From positions 2,585,001 through 2,649,000 of the forward strand of contig NZ_CP036433.1 of NCBI RefSeq assembly GCF_007751035.1: a stretch of DNA of 64,000 nt, written 5' to 3'. Below, piece by piece: positions 282 to 63,501 of the stretch (its first letter is position 1; each line of letters opens with the position of its first letter). The position numbers and the translations under genes were made by a program. The DNA comes from Lignipirellula cremea. GTDB taxonomy: Bacteria > Planctomycetota > Planctomycetia > Pirellulales > Pirellulaceae. Under the pieces are notes generated by a model. That model saw only the letters and a list, made by a program, of their open reading frames with translations. It searched no databases and was not told the DNA's origin.

Positions 282-764
282 CTACTCGCGGGCAGCGTCA
301 GGATCGACGTCGTCGAGTTCCTCGGGCGCGACAATCCAGCCGCGACAAACGGCCGTGCCGCACAGGCATCGAATCGCGTAATGGGCCGGCCAGCCATAGT
401 CGATCGTCAGTTCTTCGCCGGGCTCGATCGTCCGTAACGCGGCCACATGCAGGCGGTCGGCCGGCGTGGGATCGCCTTCATCTTCGTAAATAAACAGCTC
501 GCAGTTGGGATCGCAACTGTGGTTCATAAAACGAAACGGCGCGCCGGGCTCCAGGGTGAAGTCGCCGCCCAGATCCATCCCGTAGGGCGAAGCATAGTCG
601 GGATCCTCGACGATCTCTCCCAGCACTTCGCCGATCACCTTGCCTTTGCGAAACTGCTTCAATGCGAACAGCGCGCGGCCGAGTTTTGTGTAAGCGATAC
701 TGACATGTGGTTTCTTCATACGGGGAACGGCAGGCGGCCGAATCCGCGGAGTCGCGGCGGGCAT
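282..764 (-). CDS. SET domain-containing protein
   Basis: Small stand-alone SET domain, the lysine methyltransferase fold that uses S-adenosylmethionine. The diagnostic elements are in order: a GRALFALKQFRKGKVIGEV opening strand, the core RFMNHSCDPNCE motif (NHSC forms the pseudoknot with the active site), GEELTIDYGW with the catalytic-type Tyr, and a post-SET-like Cys cluster (CLCGTAVC). The core spans about 130 residues, which is normal for bacterial single-domain SET proteins. The start is uncertain: ATG at 764 has a weak purine-rich stretch upstream, ATG at 719 (MKKPHVS) begins exactly at the domain, and an ATG at 851 gives 189 residues. The target protein cannot be inferred. The gene stands alone on the minus strand. 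Confidence 0.85.
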   Translation of the reverse strand: MPAATPRIRPPAVPRMKKPHVSIAYTKLGRALFALKQFRKGKVIGEVLGEIVEDPDYASPYGMDLGGDFTLEPGAPFRFMNHSCDPNCELFIYEDEGDPTPADRLHVAALRTIEPGEELTIDYGWPAHYAIRCLCGTAVCRGWIVAPEELDDVDPDAARE

Positions 765-1038
765 AGGCGATCTCGCTCTTTCTGAATCTGTGCTGGTCAA
801 GATCGCCTGACGCTGGCGAAGGCGGCGCACGTCTCGACGGGGATCTGGCAACGCGCAACACCGACTGAAGATCGGGGTTGTCGCACGTGCGGCGGATATC
901 GACCAGCAATACCGGGAGAAACGGGTTGTCTTTCTGTTATCTGAACGTAACGTCGTGCATTCGTCAATCAGCAGGCGCCCTACGAATCGGGCGCCGTGGG
1001 GGATGCCGCCGGCAACCCAGCGAGGCGGCCCGGCCGAT

Positions 1039-2424: not shown

Positions 2425-3150
2425 TTAACGCAGCGCGGAAAGAGACCCGACACAGCCGCGCGGCGGAGGAGTCGGCGGCGGGTCGTTGAGAGCCAGCGGC
2501 CACCTGACGGCTGCGGGACGAATCGGGCGAACCTGCAGTTCGGGCCGCCAGGCATCGACGGGGTAATCGGGTAATGCAGCGGCCAGCACGGCGGAAAGAA
2601 AGCCTTGGCCACGGCATTGGCTGACGCCGGAAAGTGTGACAACCGTCCAGGTTTTCTCGGCGGAATCCGTCGCGGCAGGACCGTCCTGCGGCGTGCTTCT
2701 CTGACTGCAGGCGCAACATCGGGTACAGCTTTTATCGGATCCCTTCGTGCGGGCGGCGGCGGCCCGCAGCACCACGTACTCGGGCGGCGTGACGCCGTTG
2801 GCGGCCGCCCAGGCAAGTTTCTCTTCGTCGTTATAGCAGCAACAGTCCCGCCAGCAGGAAGCGGCGTCGCGGCAACTGCAGGAGCAATCCTGGCAGGGGA
2901 ACGGTTGCGAACGATCCTTCACCACCACGGGAAACAGTGGCACGCCCAGCCCGCCTGCCAGCATCACCGGTAGCAACGCCCACGCCGTCCAACGGCCGCG
3001 CCAGGGGGCGATGAGGTGTCTGGCGGAAGATGGCAAGCGAAACGAAATCACAAGAAAGCAGCCGAGCAATGAACCTTTCGCCAGCGACAGGAACTGGCGC
3101 AAGATAACAGGATAGTTCCGGTTCTCGGGCAGGGCAATCCGTGCGACCAT
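2425..3150 (-). CDS. Cys-rich membrane protein of a planctomycete-type family
   Basis: 241 residues. A first hydrophobic stretch lies near residues 20-38 and a stronger membrane segment at about 54-77 (WALLPVMLAGGLGVPLFPVVV). Next comes a dense Cys cluster: Cys 86, 89, 91, 93, 99, 103, 104 and 105, within PCQDCSCSC and CWRDCCCYNDEEKLAWA. The stretch EEKLAWAAANGVTPPEYV follows, then a second cluster at Cys 142, 145, 146 and 148. I recognise the arrangement C-x2-C-x-C-x-C followed by CCC and KLAWA...GVTPPE as recurring in planctomycete hypothetical proteins, but know no demonstrated function. Metal (copper or zinc) binding at the membrane surface is an inference from Cys spacing. The start is uncertain; the true one could be closer to the second hydrophobic segment. 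Confidence 0.65.
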   Translation of the reverse strand: MVARIALPENRNYPVILRQFLSLAKGSLLGCFLVISFRLPSSARHLIAPWRGRWTAWALLPVMLAGGLGVPLFPVVVKDRSQPFPCQDCSCSCRDAASCWRDCCCYNDEEKLAWAAANGVTPPEYVVLRAAAARTKGSDKSCTRCCACSQRSTPQDGPAATDSAEKTWTVVTLSGVSQCRGQGFLSAVLAAALPDYPVDAWRPELQVRPIRPAAVRWPLALNDPPPTPPPRGCVGSLSALR

Positions 3151-3266: not shown

Positions 3267-5384
3267 CTATCGCATCCGGCGGAAAGTGCTGAGCCTGTCC
3301 ACCAACTGCCGCAGCCGTTCGTAGCCGGGATAGAATCGCAGCTGCGATTCATGTTCATGCAACGCGGCCCGTACGTTTGTCAAATCGCGTTCGCCGGCGA
3401 AGGGAGAATCACGCAGCACTTCGGCGACTTGTGCGGAAAGCACGGCCTGCTGCAGGGCCGGCGGCCCTTTGGCGAATTCGGTCGCGACCTGGCTGGCTCG
3501 CAATACGGCGGTCGCTGTCTGGGACTCGCCTGTTTGTGGATCACGCCAGTGGGTTTCCAAGCGGGCGACTTGACCTTCGCCATCGCCCCGCAGCCAGACT
3601 TCGAACAGCACGCCGGCCGATTCCAGCGCCCTGATCTCCACCGAGGCTTCACCCGACAGCAGGCCGCCCAGGGCGACCGACTCATGCCCCAGCATGCGAT
3701 AGGCAATCACCCGCTGCGGATTGAAGTGAATCTGGGCCGTCACCTCAGCAGCGATTACGGGTGAATCGCCCGTGACCACCCGAAGCATGGCATAGCGCAG
3801 GTCGCGGGCGTTGCGGGCCGCACTCAGGTTGCCGCCGCCGGCCTGGCAAAGCTTTGCTGCCGTCGGAAATTCCCGACTGCCGATCGTAACAATATGTGTT
3901 TCCCCCTCGGCCTCGGCCGACAGTCGCATCAGCTCGCACAATTTATCAGACAAGGCTGGTGCGATCTGCGATCGACCATCGGTAACCAGCAGCACTCGCT
4001 TCGCCAGGGTGTGTTGCTCTTCGATCGGATCCGCCGTCAGCAAGGCGCGATGCAAGCCGGCGCTCAGGTCAGGACTGACAGCCGGCTCCGCCTGGGCCAG
4101 GGCGAAATGCACCTCGGAAGCGTTCAGCCGCGAGGCGCCTTCGATGATCATGCGAGGTTCGTCTTCGACCAGCAGGATCGACAGGCGATCCCGACCGTTC
4201 ATGTATTGGAAAAGTTCGGCGACCGCTTCCCTCACCATCTGCAGGCGCTGGGCCGCACCGGGAGCCGCGGAAATATCAATCACCAGGGTCAAGTGCGCAG
4301 CGGGCGTCTGCCGGGTTGACTGGGGTCCGGCCTGGACGGAAGCATACAGGGCATGTGCCGAAGGGCGAAACAGTCCCGGCGCCGCGTTGAGTTGCGGCTT
4401 GAGCCGCCCTGCCGCGGGAGCGTCCAGTCCGACGCTGGTCGCTGCAAGGAAATCTTCAACACGCACCTGACGCGGATCGGGCCAGCGTCCTTGTTGCATC
4501 TGGCGTTCGGCTGCTTCGAACGAATCGGATCCGGTCGAGAACGGCGCCGGGGAATCCAACAGCTTCCGGTTCAAGGCCGGAACGACAACAGGATGCGTCC
4601 AGTTCTTCAGCAGGAATCGTCGGTCAAAGCCCGGCGTCAGCGGCGGTTCCATCCCACGCGGCTGAGGAGTTGACGCCACTTCGAGGTCGGGCAGATCCAC
4701 GGCGGAAGAGTAAGGCGAAGTCAGCAGGCCGTAACGGGTCGCCAGCAGATCGGACTCAGGGTGGAAACCGGCAGCAAGCTCACGAAACAGGGTCCCGGCC
4801 GGCCCCGGCGGATCGGGCTCCCAGACGGCCAGGGAAACCTGCGTCGCGTCGTGAACCAGGTCGGGCGAAAGTCGCACCGGCGCAGGACGCGGCGTAACGG
4901 CCGGCAGTGCGGCGGTCGACTCGAATATCGGGGTAAAGCGTGCGGTCAGGTTCAGCGGCTGCGAGTCGACCACCACGCGCTGAAGCGCCTGGGCCGGCGG
5001 CCGGCCCACCCAGGCGGCTCCGGTCAACAGGGCTCCCTGCACCAGGTTCAGCGTGAGCAGCAGCAGGGCGGCGACCGCCAGGCGGCGACCGTAGAAAACA
5101 GGCCGGGCGGCGGCGATGTTTTTCAAACGCGCCTGCAGCCCCCACGGAATTTCGACCTGGTTCAGGACGACATCCTGCTGGTGATCCGCGGCCAGGTCGG
5201 AACCCAGTTCGCGAAGTCGCTGGGTGAACCCGGCCGGCATCTCCACCTGTTGCAGTTCCGTATCGATACGGGCCTCATCCCATTGCGGCTCGTCGGCAAT
5301 GCGCCGTAACCGCGCGAGCATGCCGTCGGGCAGCGGGGCCGCTCGCAAGTGCTCATCGAGTTGAGGATCGGAATCGGAAGTCAT
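3267..5384 (-). CDS. Membrane-anchored YfbK-like vWFA protein, putative anti-sigma partner
   Basis: 705 residues. Residues 17-90 contain three copies of a short motif (PLPDGMLARLRRI, VEMPAGFTQRLREL, VEIPWGLQARLKNI) spaced about 30 residues apart. A single transmembrane segment follows at about 101-124. The exported part contains the VRVEDFLAA element found before the vWFA domain of YfbK-type proteins, a vWFA fold from about 363 (LTLVIDISAAPGAAQRL) with the VTDG strand near 467, and a C-terminal tail (YPGYERLRQLVDRL) resembling DUF3520. The MIDAS motif DxSxS is degenerate: D369-I-S371-A-A373. The gene begins 54 bp after an ECF sigma factor gene on the same strand. A cytoplasmic N-terminus plus one membrane pass beside a sigma gene suggests an anti-sigma role; this is inference. 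Confidence 0.8.
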   Translation of the reverse strand: MTSDSDPQLDEHLRAAPLPDGMLARLRRIADEPQWDEARIDTELQQVEMPAGFTQRLRELGSDLAADHQQDVVLNQVEIPWGLQARLKNIAAARPVFYGRRLAVAALLLLTLNLVQGALLTGAAWVGRPPAQALQRVVVDSQPLNLTARFTPIFESTAALPAVTPRPAPVRLSPDLVHDATQVSLAVWEPDPPGPAGTLFRELAAGFHPESDLLATRYGLLTSPYSSAVDLPDLEVASTPQPRGMEPPLTPGFDRRFLLKNWTHPVVVPALNRKLLDSPAPFSTGSDSFEAAERQMQQGRWPDPRQVRVEDFLAATSVGLDAPAAGRLKPQLNAAPGLFRPSAHALYASVQAGPQSTRQTPAAHLTLVIDISAAPGAAQRLQMVREAVAELFQYMNGRDRLSILLVEDEPRMIIEGASRLNASEVHFALAQAEPAVSPDLSAGLHRALLTADPIEEQHTLAKRVLLVTDGRSQIAPALSDKLCELMRLSAEAEGETHIVTIGSREFPTAAKLCQAGGGNLSAARNARDLRYAMLRVVTGDSPVIAAEVTAQIHFNPQRVIAYRMLGHESVALGGLLSGEASVEIRALESAGVLFEVWLRGDGEGQVARLETHWRDPQTGESQTATAVLRASQVATEFAKGPPALQQAVLSAQVAEVLRDSPFAGERDLTNVRAALHEHESQLRFYPGYERLRQLVDRLSTFRRMR

Positions 5385-5438
5385 CAGATACTTGTGACCG
5401 CCACAGGGGAGCCGCGGCGCAGGGGCCGGCGGCGGGAA

Positions 5439-5936
5439 TCAGGTTTTGGCGCCAACCAGCAGTTCTCGCAGCCGGTTGCGGGCCCGGCTGACGCGCGAGA
5501 GGACCGTGCCCAGCGGTACGCCGAGCAGGTTGGCCGTTTCCTGATGGGTCAGATCGCCGACCACCACCAGGAGGAGCGTTTCGCGGAGGGGATCCGGGAG
5601 TTGCGCCAGAGCATGCTGCATTTCATCGGTAAAATCGTTCGCCAGGGGATCGGCCGCTTCGACGGGGATTTCCAGCGGGGAACCTTCGGGCAGGAGTTGC
5701 GGCGGCGGTTTTTTCCGCCACCGGTCAATCACCCGACGGCGCAAAATCGAAGCCAGCCAGGCCCGATCGCTATGCCCCGATTCGTATCGGCGTCGACTTT
5801 TCCACGCAGAGCGGAATGCTTCCTGGACCATGTCCTCAGCTTCGTGCCGGTCGCCTACCAGTCGATAGGCCAGCCGATACAAAACTTCACCATGGTTTTC
5901 CACGAGCGCGTTAAATTCGACTTGGGAAAGGGTCAA
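5439..5936 (-). CDS. ECF-type RNA polymerase sigma factor
   Basis: 165 residues covering the two-domain extracytoplasmic-function sigma architecture. Region 2 includes YRLAYRLVGDRHEAEDMVQEAF and RAWLASILRRRVIDRWR. A linker follows, then region 4: LPDPLRETLLLVVVGDLTHQETANLLGVPLGTVLSRVSRARNRLRELL, the helix-turn-helix that reads the -35 element. Length and motifs are normal for the family. It directs RNA polymerase to a dedicated promoter set, unknown here. It is the upstream gene of a two-gene unit with the vWFA membrane protein, the usual order for a sigma factor and its membrane regulator. The ATG at 5936 is the first residue of the conserved N-terminus. Confidence 0.95.
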   Translation of the reverse strand: MTLSQVEFNALVENHGEVLYRLAYRLVGDRHEAEDMVQEAFRSAWKSRRRYESGHSDRAWLASILRRRVIDRWRKKPPPQLLPEGSPLEIPVEAADPLANDFTDEMQHALAQLPDPLRETLLLVVVGDLTHQETANLLGVPLGTVLSRVSRARNRLRELLVGAKT

Positions 5937-6246
5937 GCCACGCCTTTCTTCCGAAATTCCTCAGGGCCGTATCCGTCGGACCAACTCCGATTCGTCAGCA
6001 GGACGGACAATTATTCCCGCAAGCCGCAATTGACCCGCGGGAATCCAGCAAAATGGCGGCCAACTCGTTACAGGGCTTATGGTTGCGCATTAAAGAAAAG
6101 AGCCGGCCTGTAAACCTATCATAGCGGGCGCCCAGATAGAGTCCAGCTGAAGTTGGTGTCGCCCAAGGCATTGCCCGACTACTTTTTCCGGGGAGAACCT
6201 GCCCTTGCTCCGATCGGTCGGAGAGCGGGGGGGAGAGGAGCCCGGG
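5937..6246. other. Intergenic region upstream of the sigma factor gene
   Basis: 310 bases between the sigma gene start and the end of the DNA methylase gene. It should contain the sigma operon promoter, possibly autoregulated as is common for ECF sigma factors. I see no convincing gene, repeat or terminator in it. Confidence 0.5.
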
Positions 6247-8085
6247 CTAACGAGGCCCTGCGAGGCGGGCCGACGCTGCTTCGACCAGGGCGATTTCGGC
6301 CGACGTCAACTGGTAAAGCTGGTACACCAGCGCATCGATCCGGGCGTCGAGCGTGGCGGCATCGCGGGGGGAATGGTCGGTGGGCTCCTGCTCAAGGCGG
6401 CAGCGCTGGCGGGCGAGATCTTCCAGTCCGGCCGCCAGTCCCGGGGCGCTTTCGTAGCGAACGATCGGCAGCTGAGCCAGCTGGCTTTTGTTGATCGCCA
6501 GGTAGCCCCCACCCAATCGCTTGGCGGCAAAACGGATGCGGAACAGATGCGACAGCAACGTTGAATTCAGCAAGGCCAGCAAGTACAGCGGCGGCATTTG
6601 CATCTCAACCACCGCATAGACCTGCACCCCCAGCGCCAGCGGCCCCGGCGACCAGGCCGCCTCCAGCCGGCGAGTCATCCCGGCGATGACAATCTTTGGC
6701 GCCTGGTACAGGCGGCGTTTCCCCGCACTCAGCAAGCTCGCCTGGCCCGGCAACTGCGGGCGGCGAAAAAATCGCTTCATGAACCGCACATCCCCCAGCT
6801 GCAGGCAGTAACGATCGATGTTGCCGCTCACAATAAAATCAAACGACTCCGGCGGATTGTCGGCGGATGAAGGTTCGATAGTCGGCAGGTCTCCGTTTAT
6901 CGTGGCCGCCGATATGTCGGCGGCGGCCTGCGAAAGATCGTCATCGAGCGACGCCTCGACCAGTTGCCCGGCCAGACGCTGTGCGGAGAAGCCGGTGGCG
7001 CCGGAGTGCAAGATGGCGCAGTCCTGCAGCGGGCAGGTCGGCACGCGGCTTTCCAGCGACAATCGCGCCCCCAGCTGGAAGCGTTCGGCCGTGAAGACGC
7101 CCGACTCCTGGCCGGCGACATACGGCTGTGAGAGCTGCTGCTCGGACGTGATCTGCGTCACGATCGGGCGCTGCACGGACAGCGGAAAGGCCTTCTTCCA
7201 GATCAGAATGTAGGGATAAACATTGGCGCCGGGAAACAACTTCAACGACGACAGGTCGTCGACCGCCAGCAGCGTGGTTTGTTCCGCCAACAGCCGGCGA
7301 CAGGACCGGGCGTAGTCCAGCGTGGCAAGTTTGTTCGGCACGATCATGCCGCACACGCCGCCTGGCCTGAGCAATTCGTAGGCGCGTTCCAGAAACAGCA
7401 CGTACGCGTCGTACGCTCCGTCGGCGGAGCGATATCTTCGTCGCAGGAACGCCAGACATTGTGGTGACTGGCCTTTGGTCCACCGTCGAATGTTCAGGTA
7501 AGGCGGGTTGCCGACGACCGCATCCAGTCCGCCCGGTGCGTCCGGAGCGCTCCAGGCGGCGACTCCGGCGGGAGCCGACGGGTCGTTCCGTTGTCCCAGC
7601 AGCGTGGGGAAAGATTGCCGCCAGTCGAACGTGTGCGGCGGAGCGGGACCGGTCGCCAGCGTCTGCCATTCGGGGCCGACTAGCGCATCGCCGCGTCGTA
7701 CGTCCCAGTTGATCCGGGCGTCGGTTTCGGCCTCCGTGGCGTCGCACGCGACTTCTCGGAGGACGATCTCTCCGCCCGGCGCGACGTCCTGGCGAACGTC
7801 GCCCAGAACGCTGGTGTCAAGACCGGACATTGTCTGGCCGGCGGCGGCGACGGCGACCGGATCGATATCCACGCCCAGCAGTTGATGGCCCGCGCCGCCG
7901 CGTGCGGCCAGCATCCGCCAGGCCTCACTTAGGAACGCCCCATCTCCGCAGGCCGGATCACAAATCGTGAGCGGACCGGCAGAGGGCAGGTGAGCAAGCA
8001 CGCCCTGCAGGATGCGCCGCGCCACGGCGAGTGGCGTGTAAAACACGCCTCGAGCCTGACGATCTTTCGACGGGGTAATCTTCAT
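6247..8085 (-). CDS. N6-adenine DNA methyltransferase, Eco57I/TaqI-like
   Basis: 612 residues. Near the N-terminus GVFYTPLAVARRIL (residues 13-26) is the motif X region of gamma-class adenine methylases. Motif I is ICDPACGDGAF (41-51), which binds S-adenosylmethionine; GVDIDPVAVAAA (71-82) is motif II; NPPY (193-196) is the catalytic motif IV of N6-adenine enzymes. The C-terminal third (ALLNSTLLSHLFRIRFAAKRLGGGYLAI, SQLAQLPIV) resembles the TaqI-like target recognition domain of Eco57I-type proteins. No PD-(D/E)xK or other nuclease domain is visible in the N-terminus, and no nuclease gene is adjacent, so it looks like an orphan methylase. It could alternatively be the modification part of a system whose nuclease lies elsewhere. 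Confidence 0.9.
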   Translation of the reverse strand: MKITPSKDRQARGVFYTPLAVARRILQGVLAHLPSAGPLTICDPACGDGAFLSEAWRMLAARGGAGHQLLGVDIDPVAVAAAGQTMSGLDTSVLGDVRQDVAPGGEIVLREVACDATEAETDARINWDVRRGDALVGPEWQTLATGPAPPHTFDWRQSFPTLLGQRNDPSAPAGVAAWSAPDAPGGLDAVVGNPPYLNIRRWTKGQSPQCLAFLRRRYRSADGAYDAYVLFLERAYELLRPGGVCGMIVPNKLATLDYARSCRRLLAEQTTLLAVDDLSSLKLFPGANVYPYILIWKKAFPLSVQRPIVTQITSEQQLSQPYVAGQESGVFTAERFQLGARLSLESRVPTCPLQDCAILHSGATGFSAQRLAGQLVEASLDDDLSQAAADISAATINGDLPTIEPSSADNPPESFDFIVSGNIDRYCLQLGDVRFMKRFFRRPQLPGQASLLSAGKRRLYQAPKIVIAGMTRRLEAAWSPGPLALGVQVYAVVEMQMPPLYLLALLNSTLLSHLFRIRFAAKRLGGGYLAINKSQLAQLPIVRYESAPGLAAGLEDLARQRCRLEQEPTDHSPRDAATLDARIDALVYQLYQLTSAEIALVEAASARLAGPR

Positions 8086-60384: not shown

Positions 60385-60750
60385 TAGATTTCCTCCGGGA
60401 TGCCGTGTAGAAACCTCTATCCCATAGTATTTAGCGACCTCGCTGCGGGTCAAGAGAAACCACGTAATCTGCGCAAACGGCGCGAAAGAACTCGGAAGAC
60501 CATTACCTGTGGCGACAATTGTGCGGAAAAGGTAGACGTCGCGGCGGATCGGATTAGAGTAAAACAGTCGCCCGGAATCGTTCCCCCAGGAAAATCCGGC
60601 GGCGGCGCCGGGAATAGTCAGCGATTCGACAGACGAATCTCTTGGCGTAGACTGTTAACAAGCGAACGAAACTGCGAGACCCCGACGCGCCTGAGCGTGC
60701 GGGGGGGTCTTTCCACCCCGGCTTCTTTCCTCGAAATTCGCGGAACCTCG
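60385..60750. other. Intergenic region with a GC-rich hairpin
   Basis: 366 bases between divergent genes. At 60677-60710 an imperfect hairpin can form: AGACCCC (60677-60683) pairs with GGGGTCT (60704-60710) and an inner stem CGCGC/GCGTG adds five pairs. No T-run follows, so a terminator is unlikely; it may be a structured leader of the downstream gene, 40 bases away. No gene is seen. Confidence 0.45.
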
Positions 60751-61116
60751 ATGGCATCCTCCCCCTTTGATAACGATTCCGACATTCCCGCCGACAGCGC
60801 GCTCGATATGGACCTGGGCGGCGATATGTCGCTGGATATGCCGGTAGAATCCACGGAAAATGCCGAGCAGGCTCCGGGCGATATGTTTGCCGGCGTGCCC
60901 GACAAAGCTCCCGCCGGGGGACCCGCGGAGGCCGACGCGCCGGAGGAAGTGCCCGTCAAAAGGACGCCGTCGGACGTCTATTCCTGGCTACTGGCGGCGG
61001 CGTTTATCTGTTTATGTACAGGCGTGTTGCTGCTCTATATGGAACTACGCGACTATGGCAGTTATCCGTACTGGAAGACCAGCGGATCCGCGGCCGTAGG
61101 GGCGTCCGGCAGATAA
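60751..61116 (+). CDS. Small single-pass membrane protein
   Basis: 121 residues. The acidic, low-complexity N-terminal part includes NDSDIPADSALDMDLGGDMSLDMPVEST. One transmembrane helix follows near 78-99 (VYSWLLAAAFICLCTGVLLLYMEL) and a short aromatic tail, RDYGSYPYWKT. GGAA lies five bases before the ATG. The acidic part followed by one membrane span suggests an adaptor-like role, but no family was recognised. The large J-like protein gene follows 144 bp downstream on the same strand. Confidence 0.7.
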   Translation: MASSPFDNDSDIPADSALDMDLGGDMSLDMPVESTENAEQAPGDMFAGVPDKAPAGGPAEADAPEEVPVKRTPSDVYSWLLAAAFICLCTGVLLLYMELRDYGSYPYWKTSGSAAVGASGR

Positions 61117-61260
61117 GCCCTTGCTTGCAGAAAAATTCCCGCGTAGGATTAATCTCCCGTGGGGTGCTGCCAAGGCGCTAATTCATCGCCCCCTGCCTGC
61201 CTGGCCGTGGCTGGCGATCGACCGCCTCGGCTTCCCATTCTCCCACCCCTGGGATCTGCT

Positions 61261-63501
61261 GTGGTTGATTCGTTCAACGCCTATCGCGAGTGGCTAGGGA
61301 TCGATGCGGCCCCTTCGCCGCGTAATTTCTATCAGCTTCTGAGTCTGCCGGACACGGAATCGGACCGCGACAAAATTGCGTCGGCGGCGGATCGCGCCCT
61401 GACCAAAGTTCGCGGATTCAAACCGGGAGCCAACGCCCGCAACTGGGCCGCCCTGCTTGACGAAATCAAAGAAGCAAAGCGCCGGCTGCTTGATGCGAGC
61501 GAGAAACAGGCGTACGACGAGCAGGTTCGCAATGGCTCCGTGGCTCCGGTTTCCGGCGCTTTGTCATCGCCTTCCGCCGGCCCGGCGGCCCCCGCGGCTC
61601 CTTCCAATCCGGCCATGTACCCCCCCGGCATGGGCCAGGCGAGTTCTGGCGCCCCTGTCATTCCGACGGCTCCCTCCACGTGGCCCCAAACACCGTCGAC
61701 TCCCGGCCATGGCAGTCCGCAGGGCGGATTTTCGCCCGACCCTTACGGCGGAATCACCCCCGGCGCGGCTCCGCAGCCCTATGGTTCGCCCAGCCAGTCC
61801 GCCAGTCCGCAAATGCCGTACAGCGGCTCGCCAGCTTCGAACCCGCCAGCCGGAGTCGATCCGATGGCTCCCGTCGGAGGCTTCCCGCAAAGCAGCACGC
61901 CCTCGGCCGGTTTTAACAGCCCCGCGTCGTATGAGCCGTATGACTATGACCCGATGGCGCCCGCCGATCCTTACGGCGCCCCCGGAGCCGGTTCGCCGCC
62001 AGCCAATCCGATGGCCGCTTATCCGGCGCCTTCCAACCCGATGGCCGCCACTCCCCAAGCCGGCAATCCGCCCGCCTACAATCCCCAAGCTTATGCACAG
62101 CCCGGGAATGCCCAGGGCGGTATTCCGGTGAGCCCCTATAACCCAATGGCCCCCGCCAGCGGAGCCGGCGCCGCGACTCCCTATGCGGCGCCGATGGCCG
62201 GATACAGCACGCCGATAGCGAGCAACGGTTATGGCGCGCCGACGACGCCGCTGGTGACTCCCTATGCGGACGAAGATCTTGGCGCGGGCACGCCGACCGT
62301 AAAACACGGAAAGCAGTCGCTCGCCCAGCAACGCAAGTCGCAAGGCCGGCAAACGGGACTGCTGGCCGTGGGTTCGCTGGTGATCTTCGGCTTGCTGGCC
62401 GGAGCAATCTATCTGTTCGTTAACAAAACAGCCGGAACCGATGCGGTCGCCGTGGTTCCCGGTCAGGAGCAAACCCCGCCGCCCGTAACAGGCAACGATC
62501 TTCCAGGCGCAATCATGCCGCCGGTGAATCCCGCGAATCCGGGGCAAACGAATCCGGCTCCCGTCAATCCGACCGCGAACGTTCCGCCGATGGTCAATCC
62601 GCCTGCGAGCAATCCGCCTGCGAGCAATCCGCCTGCGGGTAACCCGTCGACAGGAAATCCGCCGATGGGAAATCCACCGATGGGCAAGGAACCCTTGTTC
62701 AAGAAGGATCCTTCCTTTGAGCCGGATCCGCCGTCTTCCAATCCGCCAGCGACCGATCCTGCACCGTCCCAATCGCCTGCCGAAGATCCGGCCATGGCGG
62801 ACCCGTTCGGCGTGAATCCTGCCATGGCGAACCTGCCCGGCGGCGCAGCCGATCCGGAAACGATGGCGAGCGTCGGCACGCCTGGAACGGCCCCGACCGA
62901 GCCGCCGCCCGCCGGTCCGCCGAAGCCAACCGCCAATGACGTGCGCCAGTTGTCGGAGTCGCTGACCAAAGCCCGGGCGGCCCTCCATGCGCGGGACTTT
63001 GGTACGGTAGCGAAAGAACTGACCGTCATCGACAAGTTGCCCCAATTGCCTGTGCATCAGGAGAAGTCCGACCGCCTGGAGAGCCTCGTCGGTCTGAGCC
63101 GTCAATTCTGGGAAGCCGTAACCTCGGAACTGGCGCGACTCAAAGGCGGCGACGAACTGCAGATCGGCGACACGTTTGTTTCGATCGTCGAAGCAGAGCC
63201 CGACCACCTGACCATTCGCACCGCAGGGCGGAACCAGCGTTACGCCACCCGTGACATTCCAGCTGGTCTGGCCCGTGTGCTGGCGGAGCGGTTCCTGAAC
63301 CAACAAGACCCGCAAAACGTGGCAGTGATCGGCGCCATCTATGCCGTCGAGAGCAACACCGACGATCCGGCCAAACGTCGCGAATACGCCGGTAAAGCTC
63401 GGCAGTACTGGAAGCAGGCCGAATCCGGCGGAGCCAAACTTGGCGACCTGGTCAAAGTGCTGGACGACACTTACGATCGACTGGCAGACGACCTGAAGTA
63501 G
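61261..63501 (+). CDS. Membrane protein with a J-like N-terminal domain and Pro-rich regions
   Basis: About 746 residues from a GTG start. Residues 1-85 (DSFNAYREWLGIDAAPSPRNFYQLLSLPDTESDRDKI...LLDEIKEAKRRLLDASEKQAYDEQV) resemble the J-like domain found at the N-terminus of many planctomycete proteins: helices in J-domain order, but without the HPD tripeptide needed to stimulate Hsp70. About 270 residues of Pro/Ala/Gly/Tyr-rich linker follow (PYGGITPGAAPQPYG), then one transmembrane helix (TGLLAVGSLVIFGLLAGAIYLFV), a second Pro/Asn-rich repeat region and a folded C-terminus (NDVRQLSESLTKARAALHARDFGTVAKEL). The GTG at 61159 would add an unlikely Cys/Pro-rich leader. An Hsp70-family gene follows 171 bp downstream. 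Confidence 0.8.
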   Translation: MVDSFNAYREWLGIDAAPSPRNFYQLLSLPDTESDRDKIASAADRALTKVRGFKPGANARNWAALLDEIKEAKRRLLDASEKQAYDEQVRNGSVAPVSGALSSPSAGPAAPAAPSNPAMYPPGMGQASSGAPVIPTAPSTWPQTPSTPGHGSPQGGFSPDPYGGITPGAAPQPYGSPSQSASPQMPYSGSPASNPPAGVDPMAPVGGFPQSSTPSAGFNSPASYEPYDYDPMAPADPYGAPGAGSPPANPMAAYPAPSNPMAATPQAGNPPAYNPQAYAQPGNAQGGIPVSPYNPMAPASGAGAATPYAAPMAGYSTPIASNGYGAPTTPLVTPYADEDLGAGTPTVKHGKQSLAQQRKSQGRQTGLLAVGSLVIFGLLAGAIYLFVNKTAGTDAVAVVPGQEQTPPPVTGNDLPGAIMPPVNPANPGQTNPAPVNPTANVPPMVNPPASNPPASNPPAGNPSTGNPPMGNPPMGKEPLFKKDPSFEPDPPSSNPPATDPAPSQSPAEDPAMADPFGVNPAMANLPGGAADPETMASVGTPGTAPTEPPPAGPPKPTANDVRQLSESLTKARAALHARDFGTVAKELTVIDKLPQLPVHQEKSDRLESLVGLSRQFWEAVTSELARLKGGDELQIGDTFVSIVEAEPDHLTIRTAGRNQRYATRDIPAGLARVLAERFLNQQDPQNVAVIGAIYAVESNTDDPAKRREYAGKARQYWKQAESGGAKLGDLVKVLDDTYDRLADDLK
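62596..62685 (+). repeat. Six tandem 15-bp repeats coding NPPxx units
   Basis: Six consecutive 15-base units start at 62596, 62611, 62626, 62641, 62656 and 62671, translating to NPPAS NPPAS NPPAG NPSTG NPPMG NPPMG. They lie in the extracytoplasmic linker of the J-like protein and are likely to vary in number between strains through slippage. Confidence 0.85.

Follow-up and report, generated by a model that had tools for sequence, protein, structure and literature searches.

A tandem helix-PxPxG-helix repeat as the probable sigma-binding part of a putative planctomycete membrane anti-sigma factor

We analysed a stretch of 64,000 nucleotides (the window) from the 9.57 Mb genome of Lignipirellula cremea, in which an ECF sigma factor gene is followed by the gene of a 705 aa membrane protein. 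An earlier note on this DNA had described a sigma gene and, after 54 bp, a single-pass membrane protein; the open reading frames and domain matches confirmed this layout and placed the gap at 5385-5438. The membrane protein has one transmembrane segment, followed by a long exported region in which a vWFA domain and a short match to YfbK_C were recognised, and its cytoplasmic residues 1-98 contain three copies of a 24-residue unit. The features are as follows:

5439-5936, minus strand: ECF sigma factor gene, 165 aa, TTG start, with Sigma70_r2 and Sigma70_r4_2
3267-5384, minus strand: putative membrane anti-sigma factor gene, 705 aa, ATG start, adjoining the cognate sigma gene, with vWFA and YfbK_C matches
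5289-5360, minus strand: repeat 1, residues 9-32, LDEHLRAAPLPDGMLARLRRIADE, per-copy E 7e-7 with the hold-out profile
5196-5267, minus strand: repeat 2, residues 40-63, IDTELQQVEMPAGFTQRLRELGSD, per-copy E 2e-4 with the hold-out profile
5106-5177, minus strand: repeat 3, residues 70-93, QDVVLNQVEIPWGLQARLKNIAAA, per-copy E 0.04 with the hold-out profile
5013-5081, minus strand: transmembrane segment, residues about 102-124, seen in the sequence as a hydrophobic stretch behind GRR
3975-4289, minus strand: vWFA domain, residues 366-470, with a degenerate metal site (DISAA), VWA_2 E 1.8e-6
3669-3758, minus strand: YfbK_C match, residues 543-572, E 2.8e-8
5990-6017, minus strand: promoter-like element GGAATAATTGTCCGTCCTGCTGACGAAT, which lies 53 nt upstream of the start codon of the sigma gene; GGAATAR-N16-CGAAY is conserved at cognate sigma genes
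60611-60638, plus strand: second copy of the element, before ORFs 60751-61116 and 61159-63501, a predicted target

Directly upstream of the sigma operon, on the same strand, lies the gene of an Eco57I/TaqI-like N6 adenine methylase (6247-8085, minus strand). Directly downstream of the anti-sigma gene, a putative coding ORF for a Cys-rich protein of 241 aa with no Pfam match (2425-3150, minus strand) occupies the place of the TPR-like third gene of relatives. The window also encodes a small SET-domain protein (282-851, minus strand; PF00856, E 2e-17), a putative bacterial lysine methyltransferase.

The sigma protein matched Sigma70_r2 at residues 11-76 (E 5e-19) and Sigma70_r4_2 at residues 104-156 (E 1e-12); it has sigma70 regions 2 and 4 without region 3, as defines an ECF sigma factor, and a fold search led to ECF sigmas. 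It shares 52-71% identical aa with 33 cognate sigmas (aligned set) and carries the diagnostic LLLVVVGELTHQEAADLLGVPLGTVLSRVSRAR. The metal site of vWFA domains consists of DxSxS and a downstream Thr and Asp. This motif is incomplete in the window copy (DISAA), and the corresponding columns of about 44 orthologues showed the first Asp in 36, the first Ser in 27 and the last Ser in 24.

The three copies of the cytoplasmic unit follow the motif [LI]D..LR.VP.P.GL..RL..I and lie 30-31 residues apart, with prolines P19, P50 and P80 spaced by 31 and then 30 residues, which bears out the earlier description of three motif copies about 30 residues apart before the membrane segment. The consensus of the family is LDxxLRxVPxPxGLxxRLRxI. 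A hold-out profile, built from the 24-aa repeats of relatives with copies 1 and 2 of the window removed and run against every window ORF of 60 aa or more, singled out the 705-aa protein (whole-protein E 5.8e-15; runner-up ORF 0.15). The tandem repeat is not due to chance, and a scan of the whole genome revealed this protein as its sole tandem array. Among orthologues repeat 1 shows 46% identity, compared with 21% for the vWFA domain and 23% for the periplasmic linker; no other part of the membrane protein is as well conserved as the repeat.

A profile search of the first 100 residues, proposed earlier as a check, revealed no match in Pfam or NCBIfam and hence no known unrelated domain; no family in Pfam, NCBIfam or the PDB covers the repeat, and when PDB sequences were searched with the profiles of the N-terminus and of the repeat, all hits were at chance level. 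A search of genome contigs with the single 705-aa protein as query gave no matches, and in the papers searched we found none on vWFA anti-sigma factors or on this repeat. The zinc motif Hx3Cx2C is absent, as residues 1-100 contain no Cys (read from the sequence). The earlier note had regarded a His/Cys zinc site as general to known anti-sigma domains, which is wrong: about 44% of class I domains are without Hx3Cx2C and about 56% have it, so that the motif is optional for membership (PMC7406223).

Run over 398 genomes of the class, the N-terminal profile (A1) matched 67. In the strong group all 48 distinct repeat proteins (48/48) adjoin a sigma gene, always of one type; automatic scoring gave 45/48, and in the three other loci (L097, L013 and L050) the ORF overlaps the sigma gene, which is present. 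The converse search, starting from the sigma factor alone, yielded 80 loci with named records, 74 of which have a repeat-bearing ORF immediately downstream; the 48-protein and 80-locus sets overlap in part. Three of the six sigma loci without a scored repeat ORF are found no more than 540 nt from the end of a contig (L131, L171, L123). The other three (L144, L163, L174) have zero scored motifs beside the sigma gene; inspection of L144 by eye revealed one degenerate copy (LEEQLRQVPAPESV) ahead of a transmembrane segment. The test set beforehand, that homologues should always occur beside an ECF sigma gene, was passed, and always with the same sigma type.

Copy number varies among the 74 loci, with one copy in 8, two in 33, three in 23, four in 8 and five in 2. 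At eight loci nothing more than a short protein, with one or two motifs and no vWFA domain, is encoded beside the sigma gene. Single-motif short proteins follow the sigma gene at L121, L126, L134, L142, L147, L157 and L161, with no transmembrane segment seen, and L111 has two motifs within 86 aa. The single motif is often located at the extreme C-terminus, for example EDSLRDVPLPDGFMARLRGLVNDL in Botrimarina colliarenosi, and the short forms at L126 (Aeoliella) and L147 (Botrimarina) come from isolates, not from metagenome bins. These motif-only proteins beside the sigma gene indicate that the persisting element is the motif and not the membrane sensor.

The weaker matches of the class scan were nearly all proteins of 240-360 aa, mostly with Hx3Cx2C and mostly encoded directly downstream of other ECF sigma genes (E about 1e-19 to 1e-27 against the window sigma). 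Because the A1 profile includes the border of the transmembrane segment, we rescanned with the 24-aa repeat profile alone. In 59 genomes at E<=0.02 this gave 26 matches, namely 20 repeat proteins and 6 others; four of the latter are zinc-finger proteins beside an ECF gene (L231, L235, L236 and L237) and two come from one unrelated family. In the zinc-finger proteins the motif lies shortly after Hx3Cx2C and before the transmembrane segment. In class I domains Hx3Cx2C extends over helices 2-3, and a flexible linker precedes helix 4, which is the sigma2-binding helix (PMC7406223); the motif of the zinc-finger proteins therefore stands at the position of helix 4. In solved complexes it is helix 4 that covers sigma2. 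A profile comparison of the zinc-finger tails with the repeat gave a probability of 96% (E 1.6e-9) for a tail set gathered mostly via the repeat profile itself. Compared with the PDB, the tail profile ranked RslA, RsiW and DdvA first, weakly (E 0.02-0.12), and aligned the motif to RsiW VEAPADFTANVMAKL.

The idea that the motif is general to zinc-finger anti-sigma factors was rejected: only one of 29 Hx3Cx2C ORFs, chosen independently via zf-HC2, carries it, which makes the motif-bearing zinc-finger proteins a planctomycete subset. In the zinc-finger tails the first helix exceeds that of the repeat by about one turn. As the alignable stretch comprises only about 20 residues, a shared origin with helix 4 can be held with less confidence than the anti-sigma role. 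Searches also connected these tails with DUF3379 (PF11859), a family whose function is unannotated: weak matches (best E 4e-5) came from 12 of the 16 tails of planctomycete zinc-finger anti-sigma factors and marginal ones from two repeat proteins. Judged by these matches, DUF3379 may be an anti-sigma relative.

The sigma factor and the tail share a reading frame, which made single-chain folding feasible. We modelled window 5091-5936 with AlphaFold as one chain with the sigma stop codon read as Gly (62-row alignment, 20 rows paired). This model of sigma factor and tail, suggested in the earlier note, had a pTM of 0.40: the repeats formed hairpins of a helix, a P-x-P-x-G turn and a helix (block pLDDT about 65-81), and the two parts gave no confident complex, for which reason sigma binding is something that we infer. 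The sigma part matched CnrH of the CnrY complex at 4.3 A. Modelled alone as a control, the sigma factor (pTM 0.77) resembled CnrH even better (3.3 A, TM 0.78). The CnrH-like arrangement was therefore dropped as an argument for binding, and the fusion model speaks neither for nor against it.

Examination of 74 sigma upstream regions (loci L104-L182) revealed the conserved promoter-like element GGAATAR-N16-CGAAY in 50/74 by a loose definition (5-7 in shuffles) and in 37/74 by a strict one; the strict element lies 74-153 nt before the start codon and has identical spacing in 34 of the 37. It is probably the promoter recognised by the cognate ECF group, with autoregulation of the operon. In the L. 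cremea genome GGAATA-N17-CGAAY occurs 11 times, compared with 0 occurrences of the reversed control and 3 of a form whose spacer has two more bases. Across 60 relatives we counted 4.7 sites per genome with the system versus 2.4 without it (per Mb Mann-Whitney p 0.0009, uncorrected for kinship).

Of the two ORFs behind the second element of the window, 60751-61116 encodes a small membrane protein and 61159-63501 a J-like membrane protein; a J-like protein behind the element was also seen by eye in the relative G031 (L316). Sites recur before a TonB-like protein with squalene-cyclase-like repeats (own genome, G000, and relatives G003 and G023), before a coiled-coil membrane protein (G000, G023) and before ExbD (G000, G023). 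The third gene of the operon usually encodes a secreted TPR-like protein (57/66 loci). A relative of this protein with 39% identity is located elsewhere in the own genome (L329, G000:C1:8092000-8099000), followed by genes for TPR, ExbB and two ExbD proteins, with a predicted site between the two ExbD genes, ahead of the second. These sites and neighbours suggest an envelope function.

Class I anti-sigma domains (ASDI; RsiW, RseA, RskA, ChrR, RslA) resemble the repeat proteins in having a cytoplasmic N-terminus before a transmembrane segment, in being encoded beside an ECF gene (here 48/48 proteins and 74/80 loci) and in a helix-linker-helix that resembles the end of helix 3 plus helix 4. The likeness to this linker and helix 4 is one of sequence, and contact with sigma2 is putative. 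In contrast to class I, the repeat proteins show no recognisable three-helix bundle and no zinc motif, and carry the hairpin up to five times. The bundle (helices 1-3) was looked for and not found, neither as a family match nor in the low-confidence model, which shows hairpins; the repeat protein, although it would act in the manner of an anti-sigma factor, is therefore not formally filed as a class I member. Class II proteins (CnrY, NepR) likewise have short helices and no bundle. CnrY uses its two helices to contact sigma4 and sigma2 (PMC7406223), and two is the commonest copy number in the repeat proteins; however, no sequence match to class II was found, the repeat units are mutually similar whereas the two helices of CnrY are not, and binding is putative here. 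Planctomycete YfbK-like vWFA proteins (L020-L032) share the same exported vWFA/YfbK_C part, but their N-terminus, of a DPRLxxYxLGEL type, is unrepeated and, read from the sequence, looks like a non-zinc class I domain. They may represent a second anti-sigma architecture that uses this exported part.

The reading that we prefer, with a probability of roughly 0.78, is that the locus encodes an ECF sigma factor and its own membrane anti-sigma factor, in which the zinc bundle was lost and the helix-4 hairpin multiplied. Going by sequence comparison and gene neighbourhood, the repeat is very probably the sigma-binding part, and its most likely origin is the helix-4 element of class I domains, with the bundle left out. 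The anti-sigma module would be the cytoplasmic tail of mostly two to five tandem helix-PxPxG-helix hairpins, each the counterpart of the segment that runs from the last part of helix 3 through the linker into helix 4 in a class I domain; the three-helix (zinc) bundle would be gone. The serial hairpins would inhibit the sigma factor, probably by embracing sigma2 and sigma4 jointly, as the two helices of CnrY do, and the prevalence of two copies (33/74) fits two contact sites. Release might follow a signal sensed by the exported vWFA/YfbK-like domain, or proteolysis. The freed sigma factor would then transcribe its own operon from GGAATAR-N16-CGAAY and, as predicted from the sites, a few envelope genes for ExbD/TolR-like, TonB-like (with squalene-cyclase-like repeats), coiled-coil and J-like membrane proteins. 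Points against this reading are the pTM of the fusion model, the CnrH-like arrangement seen for the sigma factor alone, the single motif among 29 zinc-finger ORFs, the short alignable stretch and the chance that the co-occurrence of sigma factor and repeat stems from co-regulation.

A wholly new anti-sigma module, which binds the sigma factor, is unrelated to class I and resembles the zinc-finger tails through convergence on a short sigma-binding peptide, seems unlikely to us. It would agree with the want of a Pfam, NCBIfam or PDB match, a common stretch of about 20 residues, the generic zf-HC2 proteins without the motif and the longer first helix of the zinc-finger tails; the shared position within an anti-sigma gene and the profile match at 96% probability argue against it. 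The earlier proposal of a new sigma-binding module stands insofar as the repeat accompanies one ECF sigma type and belongs to no known family; its novelty is reduced by the single copy in planctomycete zinc-finger anti-sigma factors, at the helix-3/helix-4 position. Less probable still is that the membrane protein is a co-transcribed envelope protein or a sigma activator whose repeats bind another cytoplasmic partner. The usual secreted TPR-like third gene (57/66 loci) makes shared expression plausible, and the computed data are compatible with inhibition, activation or no contact. Such an envelope protein is, however, hard to reconcile with single-motif proteins that persist beside the sigma gene without any envelope part, with the strongest conservation in the cytoplasmic repeat and with the recurrence of the same motif in zinc-finger anti-sigma factors.

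Returning to the anti-sigma reading, we tentatively propose, at slightly less than even odds, a further structural class of tandem helix-4-type hairpins, in which a copy number of 1-5 would set the strength of sequestration and which would serve one planctomycete ECF group with the promoter GGAATAR-N16-CGAAY and an Exb/Tol-like envelope regulon.

Class I anti-sigma domains are the partners of about one third of ECF sigma factors, and helix 4 has been proposed to help decide specificity within this class (PMC7406223). In the proteins described here evolution apparently discarded the rest of the domain and kept and multiplied the hairpin; in the most reduced cases a short single-motif protein is left. 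As related anti-sigma factors carry the hairpin once, this would be a new layout for a common type of bacterial stress sensor. The minimal sigma-binding element becomes testable with 24-residue peptides, and the loci offer a natural copy-number series for the tuning of sequestration. For this ECF group the analysis also supplies a predicted promoter and a short list of targets, in a phylum that is rich in ECF genes and of which few regulons have been studied.
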